This document shows, piece after piece, positions 13,672-53,453 of a DNA stretch of 53,879 bases (its first letter is position 1; each line of letters starts with the position of its first letter). The notes under the pieces were generated by a model. The model was not told the DNA's origin. It saw only the letters and a list, made by a program, of their open reading frames with translations, and made no database searches. Source of the stretch: Bacillota bacterium. GTDB taxonomy: Bacteria; Bacillota; Negativicutes; Sporomusales; CTSoil-080. The stretch is from NCBI GenBank assembly GCA_017889635.1, contig JAGGAC010000015.1, positions 1 through 53,879 of the forward strand. Direction: 5' to 3'. Both the position numbers and the translations under genes were made by a program.

Positions 13672-13696
13672 AACGTCCGTTAGCTGGGCGTTTTTT
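13672..13696 (+). terminator. Terminator after the toxin-antitoxin pair
   Basis: AACGTCC (13672-13678) pairs with GGGCGTT (13686-13692, one G-T), followed by six T. It lies directly before the ribosome site of the next gene. Confidence 0.7.
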
Positions 13697-13712
13697 GTTT
13701 GGAGGAAAGCGT

Positions 13713-14990
13713 TTGGATATTCAGATATTGTCAATAGAAAAGCTCAATCCTGCGCCATATAATCCGCGTCTTGACCTAAAACCTGGCGATAAGGATTACG
13801 AAAAACTCAAGAAATCTATTCTCACCTACGGCTACATTGATCCAATCATTGTTAACAAACGCGGTTATGTGGTTATTGGCGGCCACCAGCGCCTAAAGAT
13901 ACTCCAAGAAATGGGGCATAATAAAGTTGAGGTTTCCTTGGTGGATTTGCCACAGGAACAAGAGAAGGCCTTAAACATTGCTCTTAATAAGACTGGCGGT
14001 GATTGGGATATACCAAAACTGCAGGATTTGCTCGCTGAGCTTCAGCAAACAGGAATGGACCTTGAGATTACCGGGTACGACGATTTAGAGATTGAAGAAC
14101 TGATGCGTGCCGCTTTGGCTGATGACGAGGCCGAAAGTCTAAAAAAGCAAGTGGAGGAGGATGACTTTGATGCAGATAAAGCCGCTGAAGAAAGTATTAA
14201 TCCCGTTACACAGCCAGGAGATATCTGGCTATTGGGCAGTCACCGCCTTCTTTGTGGCGATGCAACCAAAACGGAAAATGTCCGTCGACTTATGGATGGT
14301 AAGGTTGCTGCAATGGTATTTACAGACCCTCCGTATAACGTTGATTATACCGGCGGGACTGTCGGCAAGTTGAAGATTCAGAATGACAATATGTCTGATG
14401 CCGACTTTTATCGTTTTCTTCTAGAGTCATATAAAAACATGTTTGATCAAGTAGCGCCAGGCGGCGCTATTTATGTTTGTCATGCCGACACGGAAGGACT
14501 TAACTTTCGCAAGGCGATGTTGGATGCAGGCTGGTTATTAAAGCAATGCTTGATCTGGGTAAAAAACTCGTTAGTGCTTGGCCGGCAGGACTATCATTGG
14601 CAGCATGAGCCTATTCTTTACGGCTGGAAGCCAGGTGCTGCACACACATGGAACAGCGATCGCAAACAAACCACGGTCTGGCAGTTTGATAAACCTGGTA
14701 GAAATGGCGATCATCCAACAATGAAGCCGGTGGGAATACCGGGCCAAGCGATACAAAACAGCAGTAAGCGTGGCGATATCGTGTTAGACCTATTTGGCGG
14801 TTCAGGTTCTACGCTTATAGCGGCTGATAAGACTGAACGCAGTTGCTATACCATGGAAATTGATCCCCAATATGCGGATGTCATTGTGAAACGGTATATT
14901 GAACATACAGACAGTGATAAAAATATATTTTTAATTCGTGGCGATACCCGGCTGGCGTACGACAAAGTAGCAAGCAAATTAACAGCATAA
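13713..14990 (+). CDS. ParB-like domain fused to beta-class DNA methyltransferase
   Basis: About 425 residues. Residues 1-90 form a ParB/Srx-like nuclease domain (NPAPYNPR, YGYIDPIIVN, VVIGGHQRLKILQEMG). From about 160 a DNA methyltransferase follows with motif IV DPPYNVDY before motif I LDLFGGSGSTLIA, the order of the beta class (N6-adenine or N4-cytosine). TTG 13713 follows GGAGGA by 6 bases. ParB-MTase fusions are common just upstream of phage terminase genes. It may methylate phage DNA against host restriction or modulate packaging; no cognate restriction gene is adjacent. Confidence 0.93.
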   Translation: MDIQILSIEKLNPAPYNPRLDLKPGDKDYEKLKKSILTYGYIDPIIVNKRGYVVIGGHQRLKILQEMGHNKVEVSLVDLPQEQEKALNIALNKTGGDWDIPKLQDLLAELQQTGMDLEITGYDDLEIEELMRAALADDEAESLKKQVEEDDFDADKAAEESINPVTQPGDIWLLGSHRLLCGDATKTENVRRLMDGKVAAMVFTDPPYNVDYTGGTVGKLKIQNDNMSDADFYRFLLESYKNMFDQVAPGGAIYVCHADTEGLNFRKAMLDAGWLLKQCLIWVKNSLVLGRQDYHWQHEPILYGWKPGAAHTWNSDRKQTTVWQFDKPGRNGDHPTMKPVGIPGQAIQNSSKRGDIVLDLFGGSGSTLIAADKTERSCYTMEIDPQYADVIVKRYIEHTDSDKNIFLIRGDTRLAYDKVASKLTA

Positions 14991-17736: not shown

Positions 17737-18039
17737 ATGAAGTTTCAAATTACACCTACAGCAAAACACCTAATTTTAAATCGAGGTTGCCAAATAATGT
17801 TGAGTATAGAAAAAGAGCAATGTTACGCCTGTGCTGGTGAAGTTTCAGTACCTTACTTATCTGCACGATTAGGAAAGCCCAATGATTCGCAAATAAGTGA
17901 ATATAAAATAATCTCTGAAGATGATATTAGTATATATGTGAATAATGGATTCGATAAATTTGATACGTCGGTTACACTTGCTATTGAATTGAGCGATTCA
18001 CATAAAGAAACTCTAGCTATATATGGACTAGTAATATAA
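17737..18039 (+). CDS. HesB-like / CC-Se-motif family protein (cargo)
   Basis: A 100-residue protein, MKFQITPTAKHLI ... CYACAGEVSVPYLSARLGKP ... YKIISEDDISIYVNNGF. The layout (two close cysteines, a proline-rich loop ending in LGKP, then I-x-VYV) resembles the HesB-like CC/Se-motif family, some of whose members are selenoproteins. Here both positions are Cys and no in-frame UGA is needed. Flanked by its own promoter and a terminator, so expressed independently. Function unknown. The family call is tentative. Confidence 0.5.
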   Translation: MKFQITPTAKHLILNRGCQIMLSIEKEQCYACAGEVSVPYLSARLGKPNDSQISEYKIISEDDISIYVNNGFDKFDTSVTLAIELSDSHKETLAIYGLVI

Positions 18040-22682: not shown

Positions 22683-23003
22683 ATGACGCTAAAATCACAA
22701 ATCTTGGCCGATACGGATATTTTCTTAAACACAGACGAGTTTGCCGAGGTGTGCAGCGTTGAATTGAAGGGCGTGACCTACAATATCCCCGCTGTAATTA
22801 GTATGGATGAAAGCCTTGCTTTTGCTAAAGGGTGGGAGGGCGTTTACCAGAGTAATGTAATTGTGTCTTTTCGAACCTCTGATGTGGCAAGCAAACCGGT
22901 CAGAAATCAAATTCTTATTCTGAACGGTAAAAGCTATGTGGTTACCGATTGTCAGGAAGAAATCGGGATGCTTGTCGTAAAATTGGAGGTGCCGGAAACA
23001 TGA
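22683..23003 (+). CDS. Head-completion / head-tail attachment protein
   Basis: A 106-residue protein. NTDEFAEVCSVELKGVTYNIPAVIS and NQILILNGKSYVVTDCQEEIGMLVVKLE match the gpFII-like attachment fold (DUF of Bee14/Phage_attach type). Its stop overlaps the next start (ATGA at 23000). It would join head connector and tail. Confidence 0.7.
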   Translation: MTLKSQILADTDIFLNTDEFAEVCSVELKGVTYNIPAVISMDESLAFAKGWEGVYQSNVIVSFRTSDVASKPVRNQILILNGKSYVVTDCQEEIGMLVVKLEVPET

Positions 23004-23557
23004 TCGAGTTAAACGCCGAGGGAATCGCTAAAGCACATGTGCTTCTTAGCCATATTGAAAACGGTGCGTCTAAAGCAATTTCAGCGGCGTTAAATCGAAC
23101 GGTCGACGGTGTGAAAACCGATGTTACGAGGAAAGTAGCTGAGACTTATGACATTAAGGCCAAAGATGTTCGGGCAAGCTTGAAGGCTCAGAAATCAACT
23201 ATGGCCACTCTTAACGCAAGCGTTAGTGGAAAGGGAAGTCCCATCCCGCTAATAAAATTTAGAGTAACTCCGAATAAATTGGGACAACAAAGAACAGGTA
23301 CAGTACTCAGGGCTTCGGCTAAGCGCTCGGGAGGTAAGCCGATTCCCGGGGCATTTTTGGCCCAATTTAAAAGCGCCCATATCGGGGTTATGCAAAGAGT
23401 AGGCAAAAACCGCTTACCTGTTAAAGAATTGTACGGGCCAGCAGTTCCTCAGATGATGAGCGAAAATAAGGTTCGGCAATATGTAATGGATGGAGCCAAT
23501 GATCGTTTTGAAAAACGTCTGGACCACGAAATAGAAAGGCTATTAAATAAGGGGTGA
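23000..23557 (+). CDS. Minor tail protein Z-like (GpZ)
   Basis: A 185-residue basic protein. AISAALNRTVDGVKTDVTRKVAETYDIKAKDVRASLKAQKST and the C-terminal YVMDGANDRFEKRLDHEIERLL fit prophage minor tail protein Z (lambda gpZ family), which helps the tail bind the head. Overlaps the upstream gene by 4 bases. Found in lambda-type siphophages but also in contractile hybrids such as this one. Confidence 0.78.
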   Translation: MIELNAEGIAKAHVLLSHIENGASKAISAALNRTVDGVKTDVTRKVAETYDIKAKDVRASLKAQKSTMATLNASVSGKGSPIPLIKFRVTPNKLGQQRTGTVLRASAKRSGGKPIPGAFLAQFKSAHIGVMQRVGKNRLPVKELYGPAVPQMMSENKVRQYVMDGANDRFEKRLDHEIERLLNKG

Positions 23558-23561
23558 TAAT

Positions 23562-24053
23562 TTGCTTGATCCATTACTGTTAGACAGCTTGGCCGATTTT
23601 CTGACTAAAAAAGTAGCTGATTATACTGTTGAGGATGAGAACAAAACCCTGTGGCCGTTTACGGTGGTACGGGGTTTTTTACCGCCTAAACGGACGGACG
23701 AAACTGAAGACTATGAAAAGTTTTGTATTCTGGTCCGTTACGATGATGGTGAAGCGGACTGGAATGCGGTTGAGAATCAAGCGAAAGCAATAAACCGCAT
23801 GACTATAGCTGTTCGCACAGCGTCGTTTGACCCGCAAATCGGGCCGAGAAATACAATAAACACAATGGCTATGATTCAGCGAATGATCTATACGTCGCCA
23901 ACATTAGCACGAAAGTATCGAGCGACGTTCCCTTTCAAATGGAAAGCACCCACAGGCGACACTTTGCCAATCTGGCAGGGAGAAATGGTCGTTCCGTGGA
24001 TTGTACCAATGCCGCAGGAAATATTGGAGTTTGGAGGTAGAAAACATGGCTGA
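23562..24053 (+). CDS. Tail terminator-like protein
   Basis: A 163-residue protein (TTG start with GGGGTGA). Position between gpZ and the sheath, plus WPFTVVRGFLPPKRTDETEDYEKFCILVRYDDGEAD, fit the tail-completion (gpU/gp10-like) proteins that cap the tail end. No clear signature residues; the role is by position. Confidence 0.55.
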   Translation: MLDPLLLDSLADFLTKKVADYTVEDENKTLWPFTVVRGFLPPKRTDETEDYEKFCILVRYDDGEADWNAVENQAKAINRMTIAVRTASFDPQIGPRNTINTMAMIQRMIYTSPTLARKYRATFPFKWKAPTGDTLPIWQGEMVVPWIVPMPQEILEFGGRKHG

Positions 24054-24351
24054 AGAAACGACCCAAGAAACAATCAAGAGTAGTGCTAAAGTGGATGCTG
24101 CAGCAACAACCAGCCAAGTTATTTACTGTGGGCCATCGCTTCCCGCAAAATACGGCTTACAAAAACACACCATATTTTTAGGCGGTTTGCCTGACCATGT
24201 TGCTAAACTGGTTTCAGAAATCCCGGCAATTGGCATGCTCATAGTCCCGGTTGAAAGCTTAGTTGCAACAACTAAAGCGCTTAGGCGATCAGGCTGTGTA
24301 GAGTCAGCAAGCTATAAAGCAATAAAAAACGTTTTTAGAAAAGGAGTTTAG
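24046..24351 (+). CDS. Conserved phage protein before the sheath, unknown
   Basis: A 101-residue protein beginning MAEETTQETIK, with core VIYCGPSLPAKYGLQKHTIFLGGLP. GGAGG lies 8 bases before ATG 24046 and it overlaps the upstream gene. It would normally be followed directly by the sheath gene. No function can be assigned. Confidence 0.62.
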   Translation: MAEETTQETIKSSAKVDAAATTSQVIYCGPSLPAKYGLQKHTIFLGGLPDHVAKLVSEIPAIGMLIVPVESLVATTKALRRSGCVESASYKAIKNVFRKGV

Positions 24352-24389
24352 ATAAATACGTAGAAATAAACACCAAAAAATGGAAAGGG

Positions 24390-25160
24390 GTGTTTGAGAC
24401 GAGTAGTGCACAAAATAAAAATGACATGGTTTTTGTGAGCGGTGGAATGTTTATTATGGGAGATACATTCTGCGTAGGCTGTACTGATGCGCCGAAACAC
24501 AATGTGACAGTCAATGGTTTCTATATTGGAAAATATGAAGTGACTATAGAACAATATAATGGCTACCGAGAGGCTATTAACAACAGCAATCGATTGGATG
24601 AAGAAAACGTTGATTCAGAACGTTCACAGTATCCGATTGGGGGAGTCTCTTGGTATGATGCGGTGGAATATTGCAACTGGAGAAGTGAAAAGGAAAAGCT
24701 TACGCTAGCCTATTCTGGTACAGGGAGCAATGATATAGCTTGTGATTTTTCGACTAACGGTTATAGATTGCCGACTGAAGCTGAGTGGGAGTATGCTGCT
24801 AGAGGCGGTATTCACTATAAGGATGGATATTGTTATAGTGGAAGTAATACTGCTAGTGAAGTAGGATGGTATTCAATATCGAGTGCACAACCTATTGGCG
24901 GGAAAAATCCTAATCAACTAGGAATTTATGATATGAGTGGTAATGTTATGGAATGGTGCTGGGATTGGTATATGGACGATTATTATAAAAAGGGAGAAAA
25001 TAATAATCCCAATGGGCCTAAATATGGTGATGAAAAAGTAGTGCGAGGTGGGGAGTATGGAAATGGAGAAGGCTGGTTATATGTATGTAATCGGTTACAT
25101 CTTTTTCGACGGCACACGTCGAATGGAGTAGGCTTTAGGTTGGTAAGATCAAATTTGTAA
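24390..25160 (+). CDS. Formylglycine-generating-enzyme / C-type-lectin-fold protein (cargo)
   Basis: About 256 residues, a single FGE-sulfatase (SUMF1) domain: MVFVSGGMFIMG, IGKYEVTIEQYNGY, PIGGVSWYDAVEYCNWRSEKE, YRLPTEAEWEYAARGG, GIYDMSGNVMEWCWDWY and a terminal VVRGGEYGNGEGW...VCNRLHLFRRHTSNGVGFRLV. One FGE-type Cys (in CNR) is present but its partner is not, so oxidase activity is doubtful. The C-terminal RGG...GFR region is exactly where diversity-generating retroelements vary lectin-fold proteins; no reverse transcriptase is in the window. GTG 24390 is the first start, ATG 24426 an alternative. AT-rich codon use unlike the tail genes and its own terminator mark it as inserted. Confidence 0.88.
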   Translation: MFETSSAQNKNDMVFVSGGMFIMGDTFCVGCTDAPKHNVTVNGFYIGKYEVTIEQYNGYREAINNSNRLDEENVDSERSQYPIGGVSWYDAVEYCNWRSEKEKLTLAYSGTGSNDIACDFSTNGYRLPTEAEWEYAARGGIHYKDGYCYSGSNTASEVGWYSISSAQPIGGKNPNQLGIYDMSGNVMEWCWDWYMDDYYKKGENNNPNGPKYGDEKVVRGGEYGNGEGWLYVCNRLHLFRRHTSNGVGFRLVRSNL

Positions 25161-25270
25161 TTTTATAGCTGCTTTTACATTAATAACTGGTTGTGACCTT
25201 AAACAGAAGGTCTAATATGGTTATAAGCAGTTTGTGGCGAAAAAGCATAGCCTAATATACTGCAATAAAT

Positions 25271-25300
25271 GCCGGGACAAATATGGTTCTGGCTTTTTTT
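25271..25300 (+). terminator. Terminator after the lectin-fold gene
   Basis: GCCGGGAC (25271-25278) pairs with GTTCTGGC (25286-25293, two G-T), then seven T. A TATAAT at 25351-25356 downstream may restart transcription for the sheath, though no good -35 is visible. Confidence 0.75.
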
Positions 25301-25377
25301 ATGAAAAAGAACATTTATTAAATGATTTATAAAAGAAATCAAATGAACGATATAATCGAATTGTGAGGAGGGATAAC

Positions 25378-26850
25378 GTGAGTTTTAAACATGGGATTTA
25401 CGTTTCAGAGGTGTCAACCAGCATCGTTCCACCGACGTCGACTGATGCGGGGATACCAGTAGTAATTGGTACAGCGCCGATCAACTTAGGCGACGATCCA
25501 AATGCAGTAACCAACGTACCAATTCTTTGTGAAACCTACGCGGAAGCGGTAGCGGCGCTGGGGTATAGTACGGACTGGGATAATTATACGTTGTGTGAGT
25601 TTATGTATTCTCACTTTCAATTATTTGCCGTTGCCCCAGTGGTATTTATTAATGTCCTTGATCCTACCTCACACATTACCTCAATTTCAAATGCAAGCGT
25701 GACATTATCGTCCGGGGCGGCCACAGTCGAGGTTGCTGGCATCTTGCTTGACAGTTTAACCGTAGCGCTGACCACCGGCGGAACCGCGCTAACGGTCGAC
25801 ACGGATTATACGGCATCTTTTGATGATGATGGTTACGTAGATATTGCCTATATCTCAGGCGGGGCGATAACCTCTGAGTCGGCGACAATTTACATCAGCT
25901 ACAATAAGCTTGATCCTTCTCAAGTAACATACTCCGATATTATCGGCGGTGTCAGCACTTCGACCGGCGCGTACACTGGCCTTGAATTAATCAACCATGT
26001 CTATCCCTTGCTTAGAGTGGTGCCAGGACAGATCTGCGCGCCATATTGGTCAACTAAACCAGCGGTTGCTGCTGTCATGGAGGCTAAAGCCGCATCCATC
26101 AATGGGATATTTAAGTGCATTGCCTTAGTAGATATTCCCACAGGCACCGTCACTAAATACAGTGCCGCGCCTGCGTGGAAGGAAGATAACAATTATACAT
26201 ATGCCAGGCAGGTGGTTTGTTGGCCGAAAATAAAGCTAGACGATTATGTATTTCATATGTCAACCCAGGTGGCTGGACTAATTGCACTATTGGATAGCGA
26301 AAACGACGATATTCCCTATGAAAGTCCGTCGAATAAGAGCCTGGAAATGGACAGTCTGGTGCTCGAAGACGGAACAGAAGTAACCTTGGCGCTGGATCAG
26401 GCAAACTACCTGAATGGGCAGGGGATTGTTACAGCGCTAAACTGGATTGGCGGCTGGAAATTGTGGGGCAATCGCACTGGGGCCTATCCAAATAATACAG
26501 ATCCCAAAGACGCCTTTATAGCTATTCGGCGAATGTTTGACTGGCAGGCAAATGAGTTTATTCAAACGTTCTGGAGTAAGGTGGACAAGCCAGTAAATCG
26601 GGTGTTCATTGAAGCAATTCTGGACTCTGAGAATATCCGGTTGAACGGACTTGCGTCAAGGGGATATATTCTTGGTGGCCGGGTGGAATTTTTGTCGACG
26701 GAAAATGCAACGACTGACCTTGAGGATGGAAAAATAACTTTCCACACCTACATTACTCCGCCGACTCCGGCTGAGGAAATTTCTGATACGTTGGAATACG
26801 ACACCGATTATTTATCAACGCTGTTCTCAAGTAGCACAAGTTCGTCGTAA
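25378..26850 (+). CDS. Contractile tail sheath protein
   Basis: About 490 residues. N-terminal FKHGIYVSEVSTSIVPP and VPVVIGTAPIN-like strands, and the C-terminal domain with ANEFIQTFWSKVDKPVNRVFIEAILDSENIRLNGLASRGYILGG, are the phage_sheath family of P2 gpFI type. It contracts around the tube at infection. GTG 25378 follows GAGGAGGG by 5 bases. This defines a myovirus-like particle. Confidence 0.96.
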   Translation: MSFKHGIYVSEVSTSIVPPTSTDAGIPVVIGTAPINLGDDPNAVTNVPILCETYAEAVAALGYSTDWDNYTLCEFMYSHFQLFAVAPVVFINVLDPTSHITSISNASVTLSSGAATVEVAGILLDSLTVALTTGGTALTVDTDYTASFDDDGYVDIAYISGGAITSESATIYISYNKLDPSQVTYSDIIGGVSTSTGAYTGLELINHVYPLLRVVPGQICAPYWSTKPAVAAVMEAKAASINGIFKCIALVDIPTGTVTKYSAAPAWKEDNNYTYARQVVCWPKIKLDDYVFHMSTQVAGLIALLDSENDDIPYESPSNKSLEMDSLVLEDGTEVTLALDQANYLNGQGIVTALNWIGGWKLWGNRTGAYPNNTDPKDAFIAIRRMFDWQANEFIQTFWSKVDKPVNRVFIEAILDSENIRLNGLASRGYILGGRVEFLSTENATTDLEDGKITFHTYITPPTPAEEISDTLEYDTDYLSTLFSSSTSSS

Positions 26851-27832: not shown

Positions 27833-29698
27833 TTGGCGAAAGTATATCAAATTGCTTTTCAATTGGCCGGAAAATTAGGTTCGAACTTCGGCTCTACTTT
27901 TCTCTCGGCGCAGAAACATATCAGTGGTTTAGACCAGCAAATTAAGAAATTGAAGCAAGATATGAAGGGTTCTGGGGCCAATAAGGGGCAATTACAAGCG
28001 GAAATAGATGGTTTACTGGTGCAAAAAGCCAAATTTATAGCTGCTCAAAACGCTGCCGACAAGTTTAAAAAGTCGACAACGGAGGCTTTTAAGGCAGCTG
28101 CGATTACTGCCGGAGTTGCGACAGCTGTAGTTACTGGGTATTATGCCAGTGCTATGAAGCTGGCCAATGGTGTCATGGAACATGCAAAGCATGCCCAAAC
28201 CGCCGCCAAAATCGCCGGGGTCAGCGCCGCGTGGTATGAAAAGATGAGCTATGTCGCTAAAGCGGCTGGGGTTAGCGCCGAGTACTTTGACAAGTCCCTT
28301 GGGAAAATGGTCATTAATCTTGGTGAAGCAAAGCGCGGAAACAAGGAAATGCTTACCGTGTTCTCACAATTAGGCATATCGGCGCAAGAGTTGCAACGAA
28401 TGAGGCCTGAACAGGCATTCCTGAGGATTACCCAAGGCTTGAATGGAATAAATGATGCGGCAGTGCGGACTGATTTAGCGAGAAAAGTTTTTGGCAAGAT
28501 CGGAACAAGTATGATTCCCCTGACCAAAATGAGTGTCGAGGAAATTCGAGCGCTTGAAAAAGAAGCAAAACGTATGGGGATTGTACTGAATGACTCAGCC
28601 TTAGAGCAGGCTAAGGGTTATCGCTTAGCTAAAAATAAATTCGATGCGGTGTGGGCTGGAACGAAGCTTGGAATTGGTCAAGCGCTTCTGCCTGGATTAG
28701 CAACTGGTATGGAAAATATATCGAAACTGGCGGTCAAGTACCAGCCGGCAATTAGAAATTTTGCTAAAGACCTTGGCCAAGGGTTTAAAGATGCTACGCC
28801 AGAACTTTCAAGGACAGTAAAATTAATGGCTCGGCTGGCAAGTATGGCTTACCGTGGAGCAAAGATAGTTTCGAATTTAATTGGCGGGTTTCATAACCTG
28901 GTCTATTTTGCAGCGGCTTGGATTGGGCTAAAAATGGCTGTAGCACTATTCAATACAGGAAGGGCTATGTTAACGGCAGGAAGAGATACATACAAATTAA
29001 TCGGTCATATTCGGAATCTCCATATTATGACGACGCTGGCGAATGCAAGAATGAAAGTCATTGCTTTTACTACCAAAGCGTGGGCTGCGGCGCAGCGGGT
29101 ATTAAACTTTGTTATGAAGGCTAACCCGATATTGAGGGTAGTTATGGTGGCGATAGCTCTTGGCACGGCGGCAATTTGGGTCTATAAGAATTGGGATAAA
29201 GTAAAGGCGTATTTCAGTAATTGGAATGGAGTAATAGATGCAATCGGCAGTTTTATCGAAAACGTGAAAAACCTATTTGTGCCGTTGTTTAACTGGATAT
29301 CAGATAAGTGGAATGCGATAAAAAATGCATTTAGCAGCGTGTCTTATGCAGGCAGTTACCCAAACGGAGCACCAGCGATGCCCGGGTTTCCTGGTCATGC
29401 GACCGGCGGCATTTTTAACCGAGAACATATCGCCAGGTTTGCCGAAGGAGGTAAGCCGGAAGCGGCTATTGCTCTTGATGGGTCTAGAAGGTCAAAAAAA
29501 ATATGGGCGGCAGCCGGTCAAGCGCTTGGGATGGGCGGACAGCGGGGTGGAACTGGTCCGATCAGTATAACCCAAGTATTTAACATAAACGGCGGCAGCC
29601 AAGCGGAGGTGGAAGCCGGGGTTAATCAGGCAAACAGTAATTTACTCCGGCAAATTGAAGCCTTAAAGAGCAATGAGGAGCGACTTAGCTATGTCTAG
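27833..29698 (+). CDS. Tail tape measure protein
   Basis: A 621-residue protein with an N-terminal coiled coil (residues about 25-70), hydrophobic alpha-helical stretches (about 85-115 and 345-465) and a glycine/proline-rich C terminus. SYVAKAAGVSAEYFDKSLGKMVINL and QLGISAQELQRMRPEQAFLRI are tape-measure-like repeats. From the usual 1.5 angstroms per residue, the tail tube would be about 90 nm long. TTG 27833, GGGAGGG upstream. No lytic transglycosylase domain is seen. Confidence 0.92.
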   Translation: MAKVYQIAFQLAGKLGSNFGSTFLSAQKHISGLDQQIKKLKQDMKGSGANKGQLQAEIDGLLVQKAKFIAAQNAADKFKKSTTEAFKAAAITAGVATAVVTGYYASAMKLANGVMEHAKHAQTAAKIAGVSAAWYEKMSYVAKAAGVSAEYFDKSLGKMVINLGEAKRGNKEMLTVFSQLGISAQELQRMRPEQAFLRITQGLNGINDAAVRTDLARKVFGKIGTSMIPLTKMSVEEIRALEKEAKRMGIVLNDSALEQAKGYRLAKNKFDAVWAGTKLGIGQALLPGLATGMENISKLAVKYQPAIRNFAKDLGQGFKDATPELSRTVKLMARLASMAYRGAKIVSNLIGGFHNLVYFAAAWIGLKMAVALFNTGRAMLTAGRDTYKLIGHIRNLHIMTTLANARMKVIAFTTKAWAAAQRVLNFVMKANPILRVVMVAIALGTAAIWVYKNWDKVKAYFSNWNGVIDAIGSFIENVKNLFVPLFNWISDKWNAIKNAFSSVSYAGSYPNGAPAMPGFPGHATGGIFNREHIARFAEGGKPEAAIALDGSRRSKKIWAAAGQALGMGGQRGGTGPISITQVFNINGGSQAEVEAGVNQANSNLLRQIEALKSNEERLSYV

Positions 29699-29900
29699 CA
29701 CCTATAAAACAAAACAAGGCGATATGTGGGATTGGATTGCGTATTCCCAATTAGGGGATGAGCTCTATATGGATGACCTTATTGCGGAAAATATAAAATA
29801 CCGGGAAGTGGTTGTTTTCCCGGCGGGTGTTACCCTTACCATTCCAACAATATCAACGCCGGTGGGCAGTAGTTTGCCGCCATGGAAGCAGTCAACATGA
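29691..29900 (+). CDS. Tail protein X (LysM-like)
   Basis: A 69-residue protein: STYKTKQGDMWDWIAYSQLGDELYMDDLIAENIKYREVVVFPAGVTLTIP is a P2 gpX, with a LysM-like fold. ATG 29691 overlaps the tape measure gene by 8 bases, and its end overlaps the hub gene (ATGA). Confidence 0.92.
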   Translation: MSSTYKTKQGDMWDWIAYSQLGDELYMDDLIAENIKYREVVVFPAGVTLTIPTISTPVGSSLPPWKQST

Positions 29901-30742
29901 CTACAACAGTAAGACAGGCATCGGTTAAGATTATCTATGATGCCAAAGACATTACGAAAAATATAGCACCGTTCCTCTTAGATTTCGAGTACACCGACAA
30001 TGAATCCCATAAGGCTGATGACATTCAACTTACCCTAGAGGATAAAAACCAGTTGTGGATGTCCGAATGGATGCCGACGAAAGGGGACACCATCACAGCA
30101 TCGATTATAGTAGAAAATTGGTTTAATCCAGGTGAGTCGTTGTCCCTTCCTTGCGGCACCTTCAGTGTCGATGAGGTGGAATTCTCTGGGCCGCCGCATA
30201 TTATCCGGATTAAAGGAGTATCGGTACCGACTTCAACAGATATTCGCGGTCAGGCAAAGACGAAGGCTTGGGAGAAAATAACCCTGGAAAGTATCGCCGA
30301 GGACATTGCAAGTTTCGCCAGTTTGACACTGATGTATGAGTCGGACACCAACCCCCAGTATCTACGAATTGATCAGGTAGAAACCTCGGATTTGGCCTTT
30401 TTGCAAACACTTTGTGAAAAAGCCTGTGTAGCCTTAAAGGTAACGGATAATAAAATTGTTATATTTGATGAACGAACCTATGAAGAAAAAGATTCGGTGC
30501 GGACAATTAATCGCAAGGGCGGCGATGTCATTTCGTTTTCATTAAAATCAAAAACGGCGGGCACAGCAAAGGCGGCTGCTGTTACTTATTCAGATCCACT
30601 CACGGGAAAGACTGTATCGGGTACATATACTGATTCAAACCAAGAATCGGGAGTAACAATTAACGTTAATGATTGTCCAGACGGCGATTATGATGACGAA
30701 CTTGCTAGTACGGAGCTTGATGAAGCGGATGAGGAGGAGTGA
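29897..30742 (+). CDS. Baseplate hub protein D, N-terminal part
   Basis: About 281 residues of the late control protein D/hub (GPD) family: RQASVKIIYDAKDITKNIAPFLLDFEYTDNESHKADDIQLTLEDKNQLWMSEWMPTKGD and the tail-hub barrel GEKITLESIAEDIAS. Whole D proteins are about 350-400 residues and one chain; here the frame stops within a run of acidic codons (DELASTELDEADEEE). The missing C-terminal domain is encoded next, in another frame. ATG 29897 overlaps the X stop. Either two chains assemble, or this is a broken gene. Confidence 0.88.
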   Translation: MTTTVRQASVKIIYDAKDITKNIAPFLLDFEYTDNESHKADDIQLTLEDKNQLWMSEWMPTKGDTITASIIVENWFNPGESLSLPCGTFSVDEVEFSGPPHIIRIKGVSVPTSTDIRGQAKTKAWEKITLESIAEDIASFASLTLMYESDTNPQYLRIDQVETSDLAFLQTLCEKACVALKVTDNKIVIFDERTYEEKDSVRTINRKGGDVISFSLKSKTAGTAKAAAVTYSDPLTGKTVSGTYTDSNQESGVTINVNDCPDGDYDDELASTELDEADEEE

Positions 30743-30747
30743 AAATA

Positions 30748-31101
30748 GTGGCTGACGACGAGGAAGAATTAGTTGCCGAGGAAACTGATGAAGAATTATC
30801 GGAAGAAGAATCCGAGGTTGATGAAGACAACTCAGATGATAGTTCAGATAGCTCGAGTGAAAGTTCAACCGGTATTACACCGGCAAAGATGGCTAAAAAC
30901 GCTCTCAGAAAAGCCAATAAACAAGAAAACACCGGCAGCATAACACTGGTCGGTGATCCGCGCTTAGTGGGTGGGGTAACGGCAACACTAAAAAACTTTG
31001 GCTCTTTTGACAGTAAATACATCATTTCCAAGGCGGTTCATCGTATTTCTGGAGGCTATACGACAGATATAGAAATAAGGAAGTGCCTCGATGGATATTA
31101 A
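30748..31101 (+). CDS. Baseplate hub protein D, C-terminal part
   Basis: About 117 residues. The first 40 are almost all Glu, Asp and Ser (an acidic low-complexity linker), then NALRKANKQENTGSITLVGDPRLVGGVTATLKNFGSFDSKYIISKAVHRISGGYTTDIEIRKCL, the normal C-terminal end of D proteins. GTG 30748 follows AGGAGG; GTG 30739 overlaps the previous stop. The acidic linker spans the gene break, with GAG/GAA repeats that are prone to slippage. Good ribosome site and intact frame suggest a functional split hub. Confidence 0.82.
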   Translation: MADDEEELVAEETDEELSEEESEVDEDNSDDSSDSSSESSTGITPAKMAKNALRKANKQENTGSITLVGDPRLVGGVTATLKNFGSFDSKYIISKAVHRISGGYTTDIEIRKCLDGY

Positions 31102-31654
31102 TAGTGTTTTCGGCAATCGCAAAGGATCTGGAAAAGATGAAGCCTTTCAAAACATGCTCCGCTATGGCAAAGTTTCGTCAGTCAATTCGAAGCTGCATAC
31201 TGTAAGGGTGGCATTTGCCGATAAAGGTGGAGTCGTTTCCCATAGTCTGCCGGTATTGATTCGTGGATCATTGAAAAATAAACATTATCACTTGCCGGAC
31301 GTCGATGAAGACGTCCTTTGTGTATTTCTGCCCAACGGAATCCAACGAGGCTTCGTGCTTGGCAGCTTTTATAACGTTAACAATTCACCGCCGGTAGCTT
31401 CGGCAGATAAAGAACATGTTACGTTCAGCGATGGCACGATTGTGGAATATGACCGGTCTAGCAGCACAATGACGGTTGACTGCATAGGTACGATCAATAT
31501 TACAGCAGCTAATGGCGTTACTATAGCCGGAAACGTTACGGTTACCGGTAGTATAGCGGCCAGTGGCGATGTGACCGCAGGAAATATATCTCTCGAAGCT
31601 CACGTTCATAGTGGCGTTGCGTCTGGCGGCAGCACAACTGGCGAGCCGGAGTAG
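31091..31654 (+). CDS. Baseplate spike protein V
   Basis: A 187-residue protein, gpV family: OB-fold (YGKVSSVNSKLHTVRVAFADKG), YHLPDVDEDVLCVFLPNGIQRGFVLGSFYN, then a beta-helical stretch and EAHVHSG at the tip, the HxH iron-binding motif of contractile spikes. It pierces the outer membrane, which fits a diderm host. Overlaps the hub C-part by 11 bases. Confidence 0.93.
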   Translation: MDINSVFGNRKGSGKDEAFQNMLRYGKVSSVNSKLHTVRVAFADKGGVVSHSLPVLIRGSLKNKHYHLPDVDEDVLCVFLPNGIQRGFVLGSFYNVNNSPPVASADKEHVTFSDGTIVEYDRSSSTMTVDCIGTINITAANGVTIAGNVTVTGSIAASGDVTAGNISLEAHVHSGVASGGSTTGEPE

Positions 31655-31666
31655 GGTGGTGGAATT

Positions 31667-32188
31667 TTGGCTATAGGCAGCCTAGGAGATATTACGTTTG
31701 AAGTTTCGAGAGATAAGGTCTTTACTTTTGATGAGCTTAGACGTGATGTCAAAATGAGATATGCTAAACATGAGATAATTGGAAATAAACCAATTTTAGA
31801 ATTGGTCGGCCCTGATCTTAGTGAAATAAAGTTCAAGATGATATTGTCGGCATCAATGGGTGTTAATCCTCTCAAAGAAATGGACGCAATATATACCGCA
31901 TACACTAACGGTGAGGCTATGGTTTTGATGTTGGGAAACTACGTCATTGGTAATTATAAATGGGTGATTAGTGACTTTTGTGAGGGGTATTCTGCGATCG
32001 ATAACCTAGGAAATGTGTGGCGGTTGGAAGTCGATATTACGCTGCAGGAATACGTTGAGCAGATCGGCGACTCAACATCTTCAACAACGACGACGTCCAC
32101 AACCACATCAACTACCTCATCATCTGATACCGATAGTACAAGTATTAGTGGCGATGGGGATGGAGGGGAAAACCCGACATTGGGGTGA
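31667..32188 (+). CDS. Tail protein U-like (gpU)
   Basis: A 173-residue protein, TTG start with GGTGG. IGSLGDITFEVSRDKVFTFDELRRDVKMRYAKHEIIGNKPILELVGPDLSEIKFKM is the phage P2 gpU family. The C-terminal 35 residues are a Ser/Thr-rich low-complexity tail. P2 gpU closes the tail end. Confidence 0.85.
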   Translation: MAIGSLGDITFEVSRDKVFTFDELRRDVKMRYAKHEIIGNKPILELVGPDLSEIKFKMILSASMGVNPLKEMDAIYTAYTNGEAMVLMLGNYVIGNYKWVISDFCEGYSAIDNLGNVWRLEVDITLQEYVEQIGDSTSSTTTTSTTTSTTSSSDTDSTSISGDGDGGENPTLG

Positions 32189-32193
32189 TATAT

Positions 32194-32502
32194 ATGGATG
32201 AATATTTAGTAACTGCTTCGACAGGAACGATAAATTTCGGGGCAATCGGAAAGGAAGAAATACTGCAAAATGTGAGATATATCATTAACACGCCGAAATA
32301 TTCCGTTCCGCTAGCTCGGGAGTTTGGGATTGATTTAACCTTACTGGATAAGCCAATGCCAGTGGCAAAACAAAAGCTGGCGGCGGAGCTTGTAACGGCT
32401 ATTAGTAAATATGAAACACGAGTTGGTGTAACCGGAGTTACCTTTACCGGGGATGCTGAAACTGGCAAACTGGTTCCGAAAGTGAAGGTGTACATTAAAT
32501 GA
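32194..32502 (+). CDS. Baseplate wedge protein W (gp25-like)
   Basis: A 102-residue protein: EEILQNVRYIINTPKYSVPLAREFGIDLTLLDKP and the conserved EPR-like segment ISKYETRVGVTGVTF are the GPW/gp25 family. It joins the baseplate to the sheath and starts sheath polymerisation. The overlapping stop (ATGA) links it to J. Confidence 0.94.
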   Translation: MDEYLVTASTGTINFGAIGKEEILQNVRYIINTPKYSVPLAREFGIDLTLLDKPMPVAKQKLAAELVTAISKYETRVGVTGVTFTGDAETGKLVPKVKVYIK

Positions 32503-42687: not shown

Positions 42688-43314
42688 TTATAATGAGGAG
42701 GTATCAATTGTCAATTCTTTCAAGGCCTTTTCAATTGCTTCATTATACGCTTTGTCAAACGATGGCACTCCAGCATAGACTGCAGTGCTCTTTCCGTCTT
42801 TAATAATTTGCTTGCTAAGTATATATTCGCCTGTTGCTATATCTAGCAAGCGTACATCGCAAGTAACAGTTGTTTTGAAAGACACGGAAAGAAGTCCTGA
42901 ACTTACTTGCGGTATGCCATTAGAAATATTAATAAAAAGTGCATAGTCGGCCTTGATTTGTTTTCCAATTTGTTGAATATCTTTTCTATTTAGAGGTTGC
43001 GAGTAGTATTGGTTAAAAACCATCCTATTATCTTCTCTGTATGTACGTACGGCTAACTCTGTCGTGTCAAACGGAATAATTTCAAACTTATATTCTGGGA
43101 AAATAGCACGTACTTTCTCTGGCAACATGGCCCGAATTTTTTCGTTGTTTACATATGTTATTGGAGCTTCTAGAAAAACACCAACTACCTTTGCTTTCGG
43201 TAGATTTGGCTGGTTTTCATTAAAGCCATTAAAACCATTAAAACTGATACTTTCAGCAAATCCTACTGACGAAAAAGTCAATAACAATAGTACGATTAAA
43301 CATATTTTTCGCAT
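42688..43314 (-). CDS. Secreted protein with signal peptide, unknown
   Basis: A 208-residue protein: signal peptide MRKICLIVLLLLTFSSVGFAES, then short FNGFNGFN repeats, then a mixed alpha/beta domain (KVVGVFLEAPITYVNNEKIRAMLPEKVRAIFPEYKFEIIPF; ALFINISNGIPQ; TCDVRLLDIATGEYILSK). Strand order and the final helix look like periplasmic lipoprotein-type domains seen in Negativicutes. AGGGAG is 8 bases upstream of the ATG on the minus strand. It runs against all neighbours, so probably a lysogeny-expressed cargo gene. Function unknown. Confidence 0.7.
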   Translation of the reverse strand: MRKICLIVLLLLTFSSVGFAESISFNGFNGFNENQPNLPKAKVVGVFLEAPITYVNNEKIRAMLPEKVRAIFPEYKFEIIPFDTTELAVRTYREDNRMVFNQYYSQPLNRKDIQQIGKQIKADYALFINISNGIPQVSSGLLSVSFKTTVTCDVRLLDIATGEYILSKQIIKDGKSTAVYAGVPSFDKAYNEAIEKALKELTIDTSSL

Positions 43315-49241: not shown

Positions 49242-49295
49242 GTCCTAAAGATATTTCCGCTTTCCTCGAAGTTGCGGATTGGAAAGGAGCAGAGT

Positions 49296-50918
49296 ATGAA
49301 AACAGTAACAACAATTAAAGCAGCACCAGGTTGTGATGAAGCTGGAAAACGGATTAATAAGCCTCGTGTTTGTGCCTACTGTCGTGTGAGTACGATGCAT
49401 GAAGAACAACAAAATTCGTTTGATGCACAAATTCGGCATTACAACAGCATGATCGAGGGAAATCCCGATTGGAAATTCGCCGGCATTTATGCGGATGAGG
49501 GGATATCCGGTAAGAGCAAGAAAAATCGAACAGAATTTTTACGAATGGTTCGGGATGCGGAAAATCGAAAGCTTGATCTTGTAATTACCAAGTCCATTAG
49601 CCGTTTTGCCAGAAATACCGCCGATTGTATTGAAACGGTCCGATTTCTGAAAAGTTTAGGGGTAGGGGTGCTTTTTGAAAAAGAAAATATTAATACGCTA
49701 AACGCAGAAAGTGAATTAATTTTAACTATTTTAAGCTCCATTGCAGAAGAAGAACTAATATCTACGTCGCAGAACATTCGCTGGTCTAATCAAAAGAGAT
49801 TCAAGCAAGGCAAGATGCATTTAGTGACAGAACGTTTTATGGGATATGACAGAGATGGCAAAGGCGGACTGATTATTAATGAAGAACAGGCGGCGATTGT
49901 CCGCAGAGTATTTGATGAAAGCATTTCTGGTATGGGGGTCACCTTGATTGCAAGGGGATTAGAGGAAGATGAAATCAAAAATGTGTCAGGCGGTACACGC
50001 TGGCAACCTTCAGTAGTGCTTGGAATGCTTAAAAATGAAAAATATGTAGGAGATGCGATTCTTCAAAAGACGGTCACAGCGAATACCATTACGTTTAAGA
50101 GAAAGGCCAATGAAGGAGAAGCACCGATGTACTATATTCGCGATAATCATCCGGCGATTATTGAACGAGACAAATTTGAATTGGTGCAGGAACTTCTTAA
50201 AGAACGCTCCAGCGGGAAAGGATATAGGCCTGAAATGGCTTGGAAGTATCAGAACCGATATCCATTCAGTCAGAAAATAGAGTGTGGTAAGTGCGGAAGA
50301 AGCTATAGGCATCAAATCTATAATTGTTCAAAGCCTTCCAAACAGCAATTTTGGGGATGTGCTAATTATATGGAACGAAAAATTGCTACTTGTGATATGA
50401 AGTCAATCAAAAATGATACACTCGAGCGTTTATTTGTGAGGCTTTTCAATAAGCTGTTAACCAACAGAAATATTTTGACTTCGTTTTCTGCCACACTTAG
50501 GTTGGTCAATCACGTCAAAATTGGTGGCGGTAAACTGGATGATATTAATGCAGAAATTAATGGCTTGCTCAAACAGGAGCATGTTTTGCTTGAACTCTAT
50601 GAGAAGGGTGTGGCGGACAAAGCCATTGTCCGAATTGAGCACGAAGAATTAATTGGCAAGCTTGGTAGGGTAAGAGCGGAGCGCAGTAACATTATTGAGC
50701 AAATCGAAAGTCAAGATGAACGACTAAAACAGACAGAGAAACTGATCGCATTTTTTGATGGAGTGGAAAATCCAATCGAGAGCTTTGATGAAGATTTATT
50801 TGCGACCATTGTAGATAAGTTAGTGGTAAAAGAACGGGAATGTATTGTGTTCCGGCTGAAAAATGGCATGGAGCTTGAGGAACGTTATAAATGGCAGCGG
50901 GGTGCCGATAAAGTGTGA
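49296..50918 (+). CDS. Large serine recombinase A (intact)
   Basis: A 540-residue recombinase. Catalytic N-terminal resolvase domain: [13 protein letters not shown] (Ser 32), [27 protein letters not shown]. The Recombinase domain (from about 165) contains RWQPSVVLGMLKNEKYVGDAILQKT. A zinc ribbon follows (CGKCGRSYRHQIYNC...WGCANYMERKIATC) and a coiled coil (about 410-485). ATG 49296 with GGAAAGGAG. This is the standard integrase of prophages of this type; B starts 10 bases after its stop. Confidence 0.95.
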   Translation: MKTVTTIKAAPGCDEAGKRINKPRVCAYCRVSTMHEEQQNSFDAQIRHYNSMIEGNPDWKFAGIYADEGISGKSKKNRTEFLRMVRDAENRKLDLVITKSISRFARNTADCIETVRFLKSLGVGVLFEKENINTLNAESELILTILSSIAEEELISTSQNIRWSNQKRFKQGKMHLVTERFMGYDRDGKGGLIINEEQAAIVRRVFDESISGMGVTLIARGLEEDEIKNVSGGTRWQPSVVLGMLKNEKYVGDAILQKTVTANTITFKRKANEGEAPMYYIRDNHPAIIERDKFELVQELLKERSSGKGYRPEMAWKYQNRYPFSQKIECGKCGRSYRHQIYNCSKPSKQQFWGCANYMERKIATCDMKSIKNDTLERLFVRLFNKLLTNRNILTSFSATLRLVNHVKIGGGKLDDINAEINGLLKQEHVLLELYEKGVADKAIVRIEHEELIGKLGRVRAERSNIIEQIESQDERLKQTEKLIAFFDGVENPIESFDEDLFATIVDKLVVKERECIVFRLKNGMELEERYKWQRGADKV

Positions 50919-50928
50919 GGTGATCAAT

Positions 50929-51936
50929 ATGGCAACAATTCCCTTGTATCCATACGGCTACAAGTTGAATTTTCTAGGCAGAAAAGAGATTCATGAAGAA
51001 AGGGCAGCCGTTGTTCGGTTAATTTACGAAAAATATATAGAAGGCATGAATCGTTATGCTATTACCTGGCATCTGATCAAGCATGAAATTTTACGGCCGC
51101 GTGGCGACTCTTGTGATTGGCAATATAGTATGGTATCGAGAATCTTAGAAGATGAAAGATATTTGGGAAATGAAAAATATCCGCCGATACTTTCTGCAGA
51201 GATGTTCGAAGCGGCTCAGGCAGTACGCCAAAGGGAAAAAGACAAAGCGGCTGCATCACGGCATGAAAGTTGTAATGCGAATCGAAGGTATCATTTTTCA
51301 GGTTTTATCCAATGTGGAAGCTGTGGTAGCAAATATATCCGGGGACTCCAGCAATGCGGCGTTCATCGAAAAGCAAGTTGGCGATGTCGAAATTATCATT
51401 TGAAAAATGAGGGTAAGTGTAAAGCTAGCGGCAATATTTATGAAGAAGTGCTAGAAGTGGTTTGTGTTAAAGCCTATAATCGGGTGCTAAGAGAGTGTCT
51501 TGCCGGAACAATTTATGCTGAATCAAAAGCTAGTCAACCAGCTTCAGATAAAACCTTGGAAATGCTGATATATGAAACGATTGAGCAGATGAAGTATGCA
51601 GATGAACTTAGAATGGAAGAACTTCAAAATGATTTGAACGTATTAATGAAAAAACGAACAGAAGCTGAATGGAAGTCCACTCCACTGGATTTAGGCAATT
51701 ATGAAACAGAGAAACTAGGTCGACATTTTGAAAAATATCCAGCACTCATGCTGGAATTAGATATAGAAAAAATTAAAGCTGTGTTTTCTAGAATTGTGGC
51801 CTCAGAGCCAGGAGAGTTGAAGCTAATTCTTAAAAATGGCAATGAAATATTCGAAAAATATAAGCCGATGAGGGGGCAGACGAAACATGCGAAAGAGAAT
51901 AGAGGTTATACCTGCAAAGCAGATTCAAGAACTTAG
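50929..51936 (+). CDS. Large serine recombinase B lacking the catalytic domain
   Basis: A 335-residue protein from ATG 50929 (AGGTGAT). It begins directly with [50 protein letters not shown], the start of the Recombinase domain, then [17 protein letters not shown], and the zinc ribbon [36 protein letters not shown], and a helical tail. No resolvase domain, no catalytic Ser. The upstream frame in the same phase does not supply one. It could bind att sites or the other recombinases as a non-catalytic partner. Frame is intact and overlaps the next gene by 50 bases. Confidence 0.9.
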
Positions 51937-53453
51937 GGGGCTTGAAGCAACAGCCAAAACTAGAGTATGTGCTTATTGCCGGGTTTCAACAGACAACGAA
52001 GACCAGCTCAGTTCTCTAGAAGCGCAGGTGAAGTTTTACTCAAATTTAATCTCCAATAACCCAGCGTGGGAATTTATAGGTATTTATGCGGATGAAGGGA
52101 TTAGCGGTACCAATACTAAAAAGCGGCTTGAATTTAATAGAATGATTGACGATTGCATGGCGGGGAAAATTGATATGGTTATGACAAAGTCAATCAGTAG
52201 ATTTGCACGTAATACGCTGGATTGCCTGCAATATGTGCGGCAACTTAAAGAAAAAAGTATTGCAGTTTTTTTTGAAAAAGAGAATATTAACACACTAGAT
52301 GGGCGGGGCGACTTGCTAATTAGCATTATGTCATCACTTGCGCAAGAAGAAAGTTCAAATTTATCGAAAATAACCCGCATGGGTATTGTGTATCGATTTC
52401 AAGAAGGTAAGGTTTGGGTGAATCATAAATGGTTCTTGGGGTATACAAAAGATGAAAATGGTAACTTGGTAATTGTTCCAGAACAAGCTGAGGTTGTGCG
52501 GCGAATTTATCGAGAGTATCTTGAAGGAAAAAGTGCCAAGAGTATTCTGAAAGGCTTAGAACGGGATGGGATACGAAATGGTGCCGGTCATTTAAAATGG
52601 CATGACACCAATATTTATCAGATCTTAAAAAATGAAAAATATACGGGTGACGCGTTGCTGCAAAAGTCGTATACCATTGATTTTTTAAACAAAAAGAGAG
52701 TGCGCAATGATGGTTATGTTCCTAAATATTATGTGGAAAACAGTCATGAAGGAATTAGCTAGAAGGAACAACTTGAGAGGTTATTCTAAAACTGGCAAAA
52801 GTGAATTCTCTAGTAAATATCCGTTTTCTGGAAAGATATATTGTAGCAATTGCGGGGCTAAGTTCAATCGGCAGATTTGGGGTACTGGGAAGTATAAAAA
52901 AGGCGTCTGGATTTGTGCCAATCACCGAATGAATGGTGAGGAGGCTTGCTCGCAGAAGGCGGTAATAGAACGAAAGCTAGAACAGGCTTTTGTAAGGGCC
53001 ATGAACCAAGTCATTGGTGGCAGAGAGGCCTTTATGAATAAACTTTTTGATAATATTTATGAAAGTATCGAGTCTGTTGAGCATGAATATACGCAGGAAC
53101 AGATAAATGAGCGGCTAGAGGAACTTCAGCAGGAAATAATGAGTTTGGTTCGATTGAATGCAAAAACCGGGCTTGATACCAGGGCTTATGACAGTGAGTA
53201 TGGTCAACTAACAAAAGAAATTGAGCGATTTAGGGAACTGCGGCAGAAGTTACTGGATGATGAGGCCCAAAAGGTGATTAGAATTCAGCGGATTGATGAG
53301 TTAAGACAGTTCATTCAGGAACAGTCTTCGCCGCTTGAACGGTTTGATGGAGACATCTTCCGCAGGCTAATCGAGAAGGTCAGTGTGAAGTCTTTGATTG
53401 AGGTGACCTTTGTTTTTAAGACGGGACTGGAGGTGAGGGAGGTTTTGGGATAG
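51887..53453 (+). pseudogene. Large serine recombinase C, frame disrupted by a deletion
   Basis: Residues 1-291: resolvase domain [13 protein letters not shown] (Ser 34), [27 protein letters not shown], then Recombinase domain to NSHEGIS and a TAG at 52760. The rest ([13 protein letters not shown]..., zinc ribbon CSNCGAKF...CANHRMNGEEAC, coiled coil) continues in another frame to 53453. Compared with recombinase A, about 12 residues between NSHEGI and ELARR are absent, so this is a short out-of-frame deletion, not a single-base slip. ATG 51887 follows GAGGGGG. The truncated product keeps the catalytic domain but lacks the zinc ribbon. Confidence 0.87.

Follow-up and report, generated by a model that had tools for sequence, protein, structure and literature searches.

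A gene for a formylglycine-generating enzyme (FGE)-type, C-type-lectin-fold protein lies in a prophage of a Bacillota bacterium, where it separates the neck genes from the sheath gene. It very probably belongs to a moron-like cargo cassette that encodes a non-enzymatic binding protein, and the C-terminal segment of that protein would have diverged by ordinary evolution and not through a diversity-generating retroelement (DGR). The window referred to here is the whole stretch of DNA that was analysed, 53,879 nucleotides of contig JAGGAC010000015.1 (assembly GCA_017889635.1). The insert is absent from the corresponding site of related loci, its product has the fold of known DGR targets, and the draft assembly contains neither a DGR reverse transcriptase nor a template repeat.

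The gene is an intact 256-aa open reading frame at 24390-25160 on the forward strand. Its product matches the FGE-sulfatase profile PF03781 over the full length (165 bits, E 3.4e-48, profile positions 3-255 of 255), and an AlphaFold2 model with an input of 37 sequences reached a pLDDT of 88 and a pTM of 0.89. The top Foldseek match in the PDB is TvpA (2y3c, Treponema denticola variable protein 1; E 1.6e-21, TM 0.81 by query length); formylglycine-generating enzymes come next, and TvpA also ranked first in the sequence search. Which start codon is used is uncertain, as the ribosome-binding site of the GTG at 24390 is poorly spaced and an ATG at 24426 offers an alternative. No signal peptide was seen in the 256-aa protein.

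The gene order around the FGE-fold gene is phrog_27 neck, phrog_2581, phrog_4089, FGE-fold gene, phrog_23 sheath and a phrog_55 structural gene. The upstream flank, on the forward strand, consists of a neck or tail completion protein (22997-23557; E 3.8e-44 to phrog_27), a virion structural protein (23562-24053; E 1e-18 to phrog_2581) and a small 101-aa gene (24046-24351; phrog_4089) that directly precedes the sheath gene in relatives. The downstream flank is the tail sheath gene itself (25378-26850, +; E 9.9e-92 to phrog_23). The distance from the pre-sheath gene to the sheath gene is 7-66 bp in 20 related loci, as against 1,030 bp in the window; these 20 sheath loci comprise only those with a findable pre-sheath gene and represent 19 distinct ones, as L028 and L045 are one prophage. 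The empty-site relatives include a second prophage of the source genome, on contig C144, whose sheath is 81% identical. The site is likewise empty in Faecalibacterium phage Epona, which has a homologous tail module with a sheath 44% identical to that of the window and where a 255-bp gene ends 22 bp before the sheath. Among the FGE loci fetched, no other phage has an FGE gene beside the sheath gene. The preliminary description, in which a lectin-fold FGE-type cargo protein was said to interrupt the order from head-tail joining protein to sheath in the tail module, is borne out on each of these points, and the sequence comparisons support a cargo insertion in a contractile-tailed prophage.

The inserted segment spans approximately 24352-25377 (+), about 1.03 kb, as bounded by its absence from relatives and by its composition. 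In the relatives L045, L026 and L027 the motif AAAGGAG stands just upstream of the sheath GTG. Its counterpart in the window, at 24341-24347 (+), was kept upstream of the insert and, judging from the alignment of relatives, is probably the former ribosome-binding site of the sheath gene, split off by the insert; the window sheath gene now has a new GAGGAGGG. Alignment with the empty-site relatives also indicates that the pre-sheath gene probably starts at 24046 and not 24001, and the sheath gene probably at 25378 and not 25363. The G+C content of the insert is 37.6%, compared with 44.3% and 46.8% in the flanks; since 11% of the stretches of equal size on the contig reach values as low, composition alone is weak evidence. 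No convincing target-site duplication flanks the insert, and no tRNA was found near it. The source genome carries four different homologous tail sheath genes, on contigs C71, C144, C21 and C119, and several related prophages therefore coexist in one genome. The C144 sheath locus and IMG/VR contig 3300033434_000381 share 11.5 kb of identical sequence.

Morons are single collinear genes that lie between conserved structural genes, have an atypical base composition and carry their own terminator. The insert has most of this anatomy. The FGE-fold gene resembles phage morons such as HK97 gp15 in being a single collinear inserted gene of atypical composition (37.6% vs 44.3%/46.8% G+C), absent from the corresponding site of relatives (20 loci). 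A stem-loop directly follows the stop codon (25166-25232, +; z -3.2 vs shuffles), with an 8-bp outer stem and a 6-bp GACCTT/AAGGTC inner stem closed by a 6-nt loop. Further downstream, an intrinsic-terminator-like hairpin of 8 pairs, 5 of them G-C, is followed by TTTTTTT (25271-25300, +; z -3.5 vs shuffles) and is predicted to serve as the cassette's own terminator. In contrast to known morons, the gene has no convincing promoter, as promoter-like matches before it are no more frequent than in shuffles. No Rfam family matched anywhere in the window, including the region 3' of the gene. That region was also considered as a mobile repeat; it is unique in the genome, and among viral contigs it occurs only in one from the same population. 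Elsewhere in the window, two more AT-rich stretches with open reading frames (42688-43314, - and 17737-18039, +), one of them in reverse orientation and with a start resembling a signal peptide, are possible additional morons. The window also holds three or four large serine recombinase frames in a row (49272-53453); the final pair, at 51887-52762 and 52707-53453, resembles a single recombinase gene broken by a frameshift.

The closest relatives of the gene by identity are in the chromosome of the source genome itself. Five further FGE domains are found there on contigs C17 and C18, in genes that have apparent N-terminal signal sequences and adjoin proteins with WG-like repeats. These chromosomal genes are up to 56% identical to the window gene in protein and 66-71% identical in DNA over about 330 bp. 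Their loci (L049 on C18 and L050 on C17) form an unusual cluster that is rare in the order and include one gene with two tandem FGE domains. Only one of 27 other genomes of the order, G026, has a homologue. In a tree, the window sequence sits on a long, unsettled branch. Identity thus suggests capture from the host's chromosomal FGE genes, a question that the tree does not settle. Among viral sequences, IMG/VR contig 3300031577_000020 carries the gene unchanged, including an identical RGG...GFR segment, and matches the window at 99.99-100% identity across more than 10 kb. It almost certainly comes from the same population as the window, and is therefore uninformative on variation. The collections searched yielded no independent close relative of the gene. 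The best viral structure match is the FGE-like protein of Microcystis phage LMM01 (A0A7F1; phrog_18508), which is likewise a stand-alone phage FGE-fold protein but is only about 30% identical to the window protein.

The resemblance to DGR targets, which the preliminary description had pointed out, is real. TvpA is a predicted lipoprotein that is diversified by a DGR with reverse transcriptase and template (PMC4891356), and FGE-superfamily DGR targets are known from Faecalibacterium phages Epona and Lagaffe, where the FGE/C-type-lectin fold acts as a binding scaffold (PMC5883640). The window protein shares with TvpA the FGE-type C-type-lectin fold and a C-terminal RGG...GFR segment of equal length; in the window this segment lies at 25044-25139 (+), the position of the DGR variable repeats in TvpA-like proteins. 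It differs from TvpA in lacking a reverse transcriptase, a template repeat, a signal sequence and a bias of the segment toward codons ending in C or T (NNY codons). In Epona (L251) the arrangement is also different: an Mtd-like target (29401-30648) and a reverse transcriptase (31093-32247) follow the tail-fibre genes.

Neither a reverse transcriptase nor a template repeat was found in the window, as had been noted at the outset, and the search of the assembly that the preliminary description called for likewise gave no DGR-type reverse transcriptase and no template repeat, the first part of the outcome named there as refuting the idea. The source genome is a 4.54 Mb draft in 152 contigs, about 99% complete. 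It has a single RVT_1 match, a group II intron-like 610-aa frame with the motif QGGVLSP, and no DGR-clade reverse transcriptase. A blastn search of 24960-25160 against the genome returned only the region itself and chance matches. In an adenine-tolerant search, in which each C, G or T of the gene may be the same base or A in the template, the gene itself was the sole match at up to 3 mismatches, and the search gave no template repeat. A window-scale version of the test served as positive control on FGE relatives with DGR-type reverse transcriptases (motif IGxxTSQ). Template repeats were recovered in three of them, L111 (Saprospirales), L115 (Verrucomicrobia) and L118 (Candidatus Cloacimonadota), whose best 60-bp windows had 6/6, 6/6 and 9/9 mismatches at template adenines. 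L166 and L169 gave none, and the sensitivity of the test is therefore incomplete. In L111, L115 and L118 a DGR-type reverse transcriptase adjoins the FGE-fold gene, the mismatches in the repeat core fall at adenines, and the DGRs appear complete. Two loci from the same class as the source genome, L236 (G052) and L238 (G055), have reverse transcriptase genes with the DGR-type motifs IGALTSQ and IGNYTSQ. On contig C6 of the source genome (L001; 703-2520 and 3213-3686, -), a group II intron-like reverse transcriptase/HNH frame lies beside a truncated ParB/methyltransferase-type gene, an intact homologue of which is at 13695-14990 of the window; the C6 intron may have inserted into the methyltransferase gene of another prophage.

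The segment itself departs from the consensus of its family, RGGSW.......R.A.R....P......GFR, as had been described, and at matched scaffold identity it is the most divergent of 109. Family-wide, scaffolds that are 45-55% identical have segments just 25-27% identical, so divergence of the segment alone is not a sign of a DGR. In the window protein the framework R, A and P residues are changed too; in L111, L115 and L118 these residues do not differ from template to target. Templates of DGRs consist mostly of AAY codons, and diversified codons therefore end in C or T. The NNY fraction of the window gene is 0.42 in the segment and 0.56 elsewhere in the gene. This excess is the lowest of 105 non-redundant proteins, compared with a mean of +0.17 (s.d. 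0.13) in the other 104 and +0.29 to +0.39 in the DGR-linked L111, L115 and L118, by a measure that is sensitive to amino-acid composition and does not amount to a formal test. The codon measure points away from a DGR. Phage DGRs have a hairpin with a 7-10 bp GC-rich stem and a 4-nt GRNA loop (PMC3240598); downstream of the window gene no such hairpin is present, only GACCTT-AAACAG-AAGGTC and a T-rich stem. With no DGR reverse transcriptase and no template repeat in the draft assembly, and with a reversed NNY signature, a DGR acting in cis or in trans was rejected. The earlier proposal that the segment is rewritten in trans, or that such rewriting has been lost, thus finds no support in the machinery, the codons or the hairpin.

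Of the competing explanations, the one that fares best is that the gene is an orphaned target, formerly rewritten by a DGR and left to drift after the retroelement disappeared, though we consider it distinctly improbable. TvpA is its best match in structure and sequence, relict tvpA copies are documented in T. denticola strains that lack the reverse transcriptase (PMC4891356), and some family members, such as L118, have apparently complete DGRs. The chromosomal paralogue on contig C17 also has a high NNY fraction (0.875). A drifted target is harder to reconcile with a codon signature that is not just absent but reversed, with changes in the R, A and P framework that stays fixed from template to target in L111, L115 and L118, and with the lack of both a DGR-type hairpin and a template-repeat remnant. 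The C17 paralogue (L050 2467-3321, -), with 87.5% NNY codons in its segment in a genome that has no DGR reverse transcriptase, was noted separately; its high value is possibly a fossil of past DGR diversification, or possibly a composition effect.

Less probable still is that the gene supplies host metabolism with a working enzyme, whether formylglycine-generating or another catalytic member of the FGE superfamily, in spite of the full-length PF03781 match and the strong structural matches to FGEs. The window protein shares the fold and scaffold motifs with the formylglycine-generating enzymes 6muj, 2q17 and human SUMF1 but not their catalytic Cys pair. FGEs have two copper-binding active-site cysteines; in the alignments to 6muj and 2q17 only one of them is matched (VCNR with YCNR) and the first is absent. 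Because just one of the two is kept, catalysis is unlikely. Least probable of all, and in our view very unlikely, is that the gene is an active target of a DGR located elsewhere in the cell, which would have escaped the draft assembly. The draft consists of 152 contigs, and targets remote from their reverse transcriptase are known (PMC4891356), but the genome is about 99% complete with a single, group II intron-like RVT_1 match, the adenine-tolerant pattern found no template at up to 3 mismatches, NNY codons are not in excess, and the IMG/VR copy is identical in the segment.

The moron-like cargo cassette accounts for these observations as follows. A cassette of leader, FGE/C-type-lectin-fold gene, hairpin and terminator would have entered the late structural operon of a prophage with a contractile tail, at the precise junction of the small pre-sheath gene with the sheath gene, and the FGE-fold gene is collinear with that operon. 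The product would retain the FGE/C-type-lectin scaffold without the catalytic cysteine pair and would thus act in non-enzymatic binding, either as a late product that travels on the virion or through expression in the lysogen. For its C-terminal, ligand-facing segment, ordinary evolution of the kind seen family-wide, without a DGR, would account for the divergence. Such a binding protein is the most likely product; its lack of enzyme activity is inferred from the missing Cys pair, and its ligand binding and the timing of its expression are inferred as well. Several points count against the cargo reading: no convincing promoter was found, which leaves the cassette short of one textbook moron feature; the start codon is uncertain; the long tree branch gives no confirmation of an origin from host FGE genes; and the extreme divergence of the segment, the highest among 109, would be compatible with unusual selection. 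A more specific version, which we put forward as a speculation with a small chance of being right, is that a non-catalytic FGE/C-type-lectin-fold binding protein, perhaps captured from a host family whose C-terminal segments evolve fast, sits on the virion by the sheath as an accessory adhesin, and that the evolution of its ligand loop is unusually rapid with no retroelement involved.

The window adds a case of cargo insertion between prophage neck and sheath genes, at a site that is empty in the other relatives examined. For the wider family, an FGE/C-type-lectin fold combined with divergence of the RGG...GFR segment does not on its own amount to evidence for a DGR, and codon and template tests of the kind illustrated here tell DGR targets from look-alikes.
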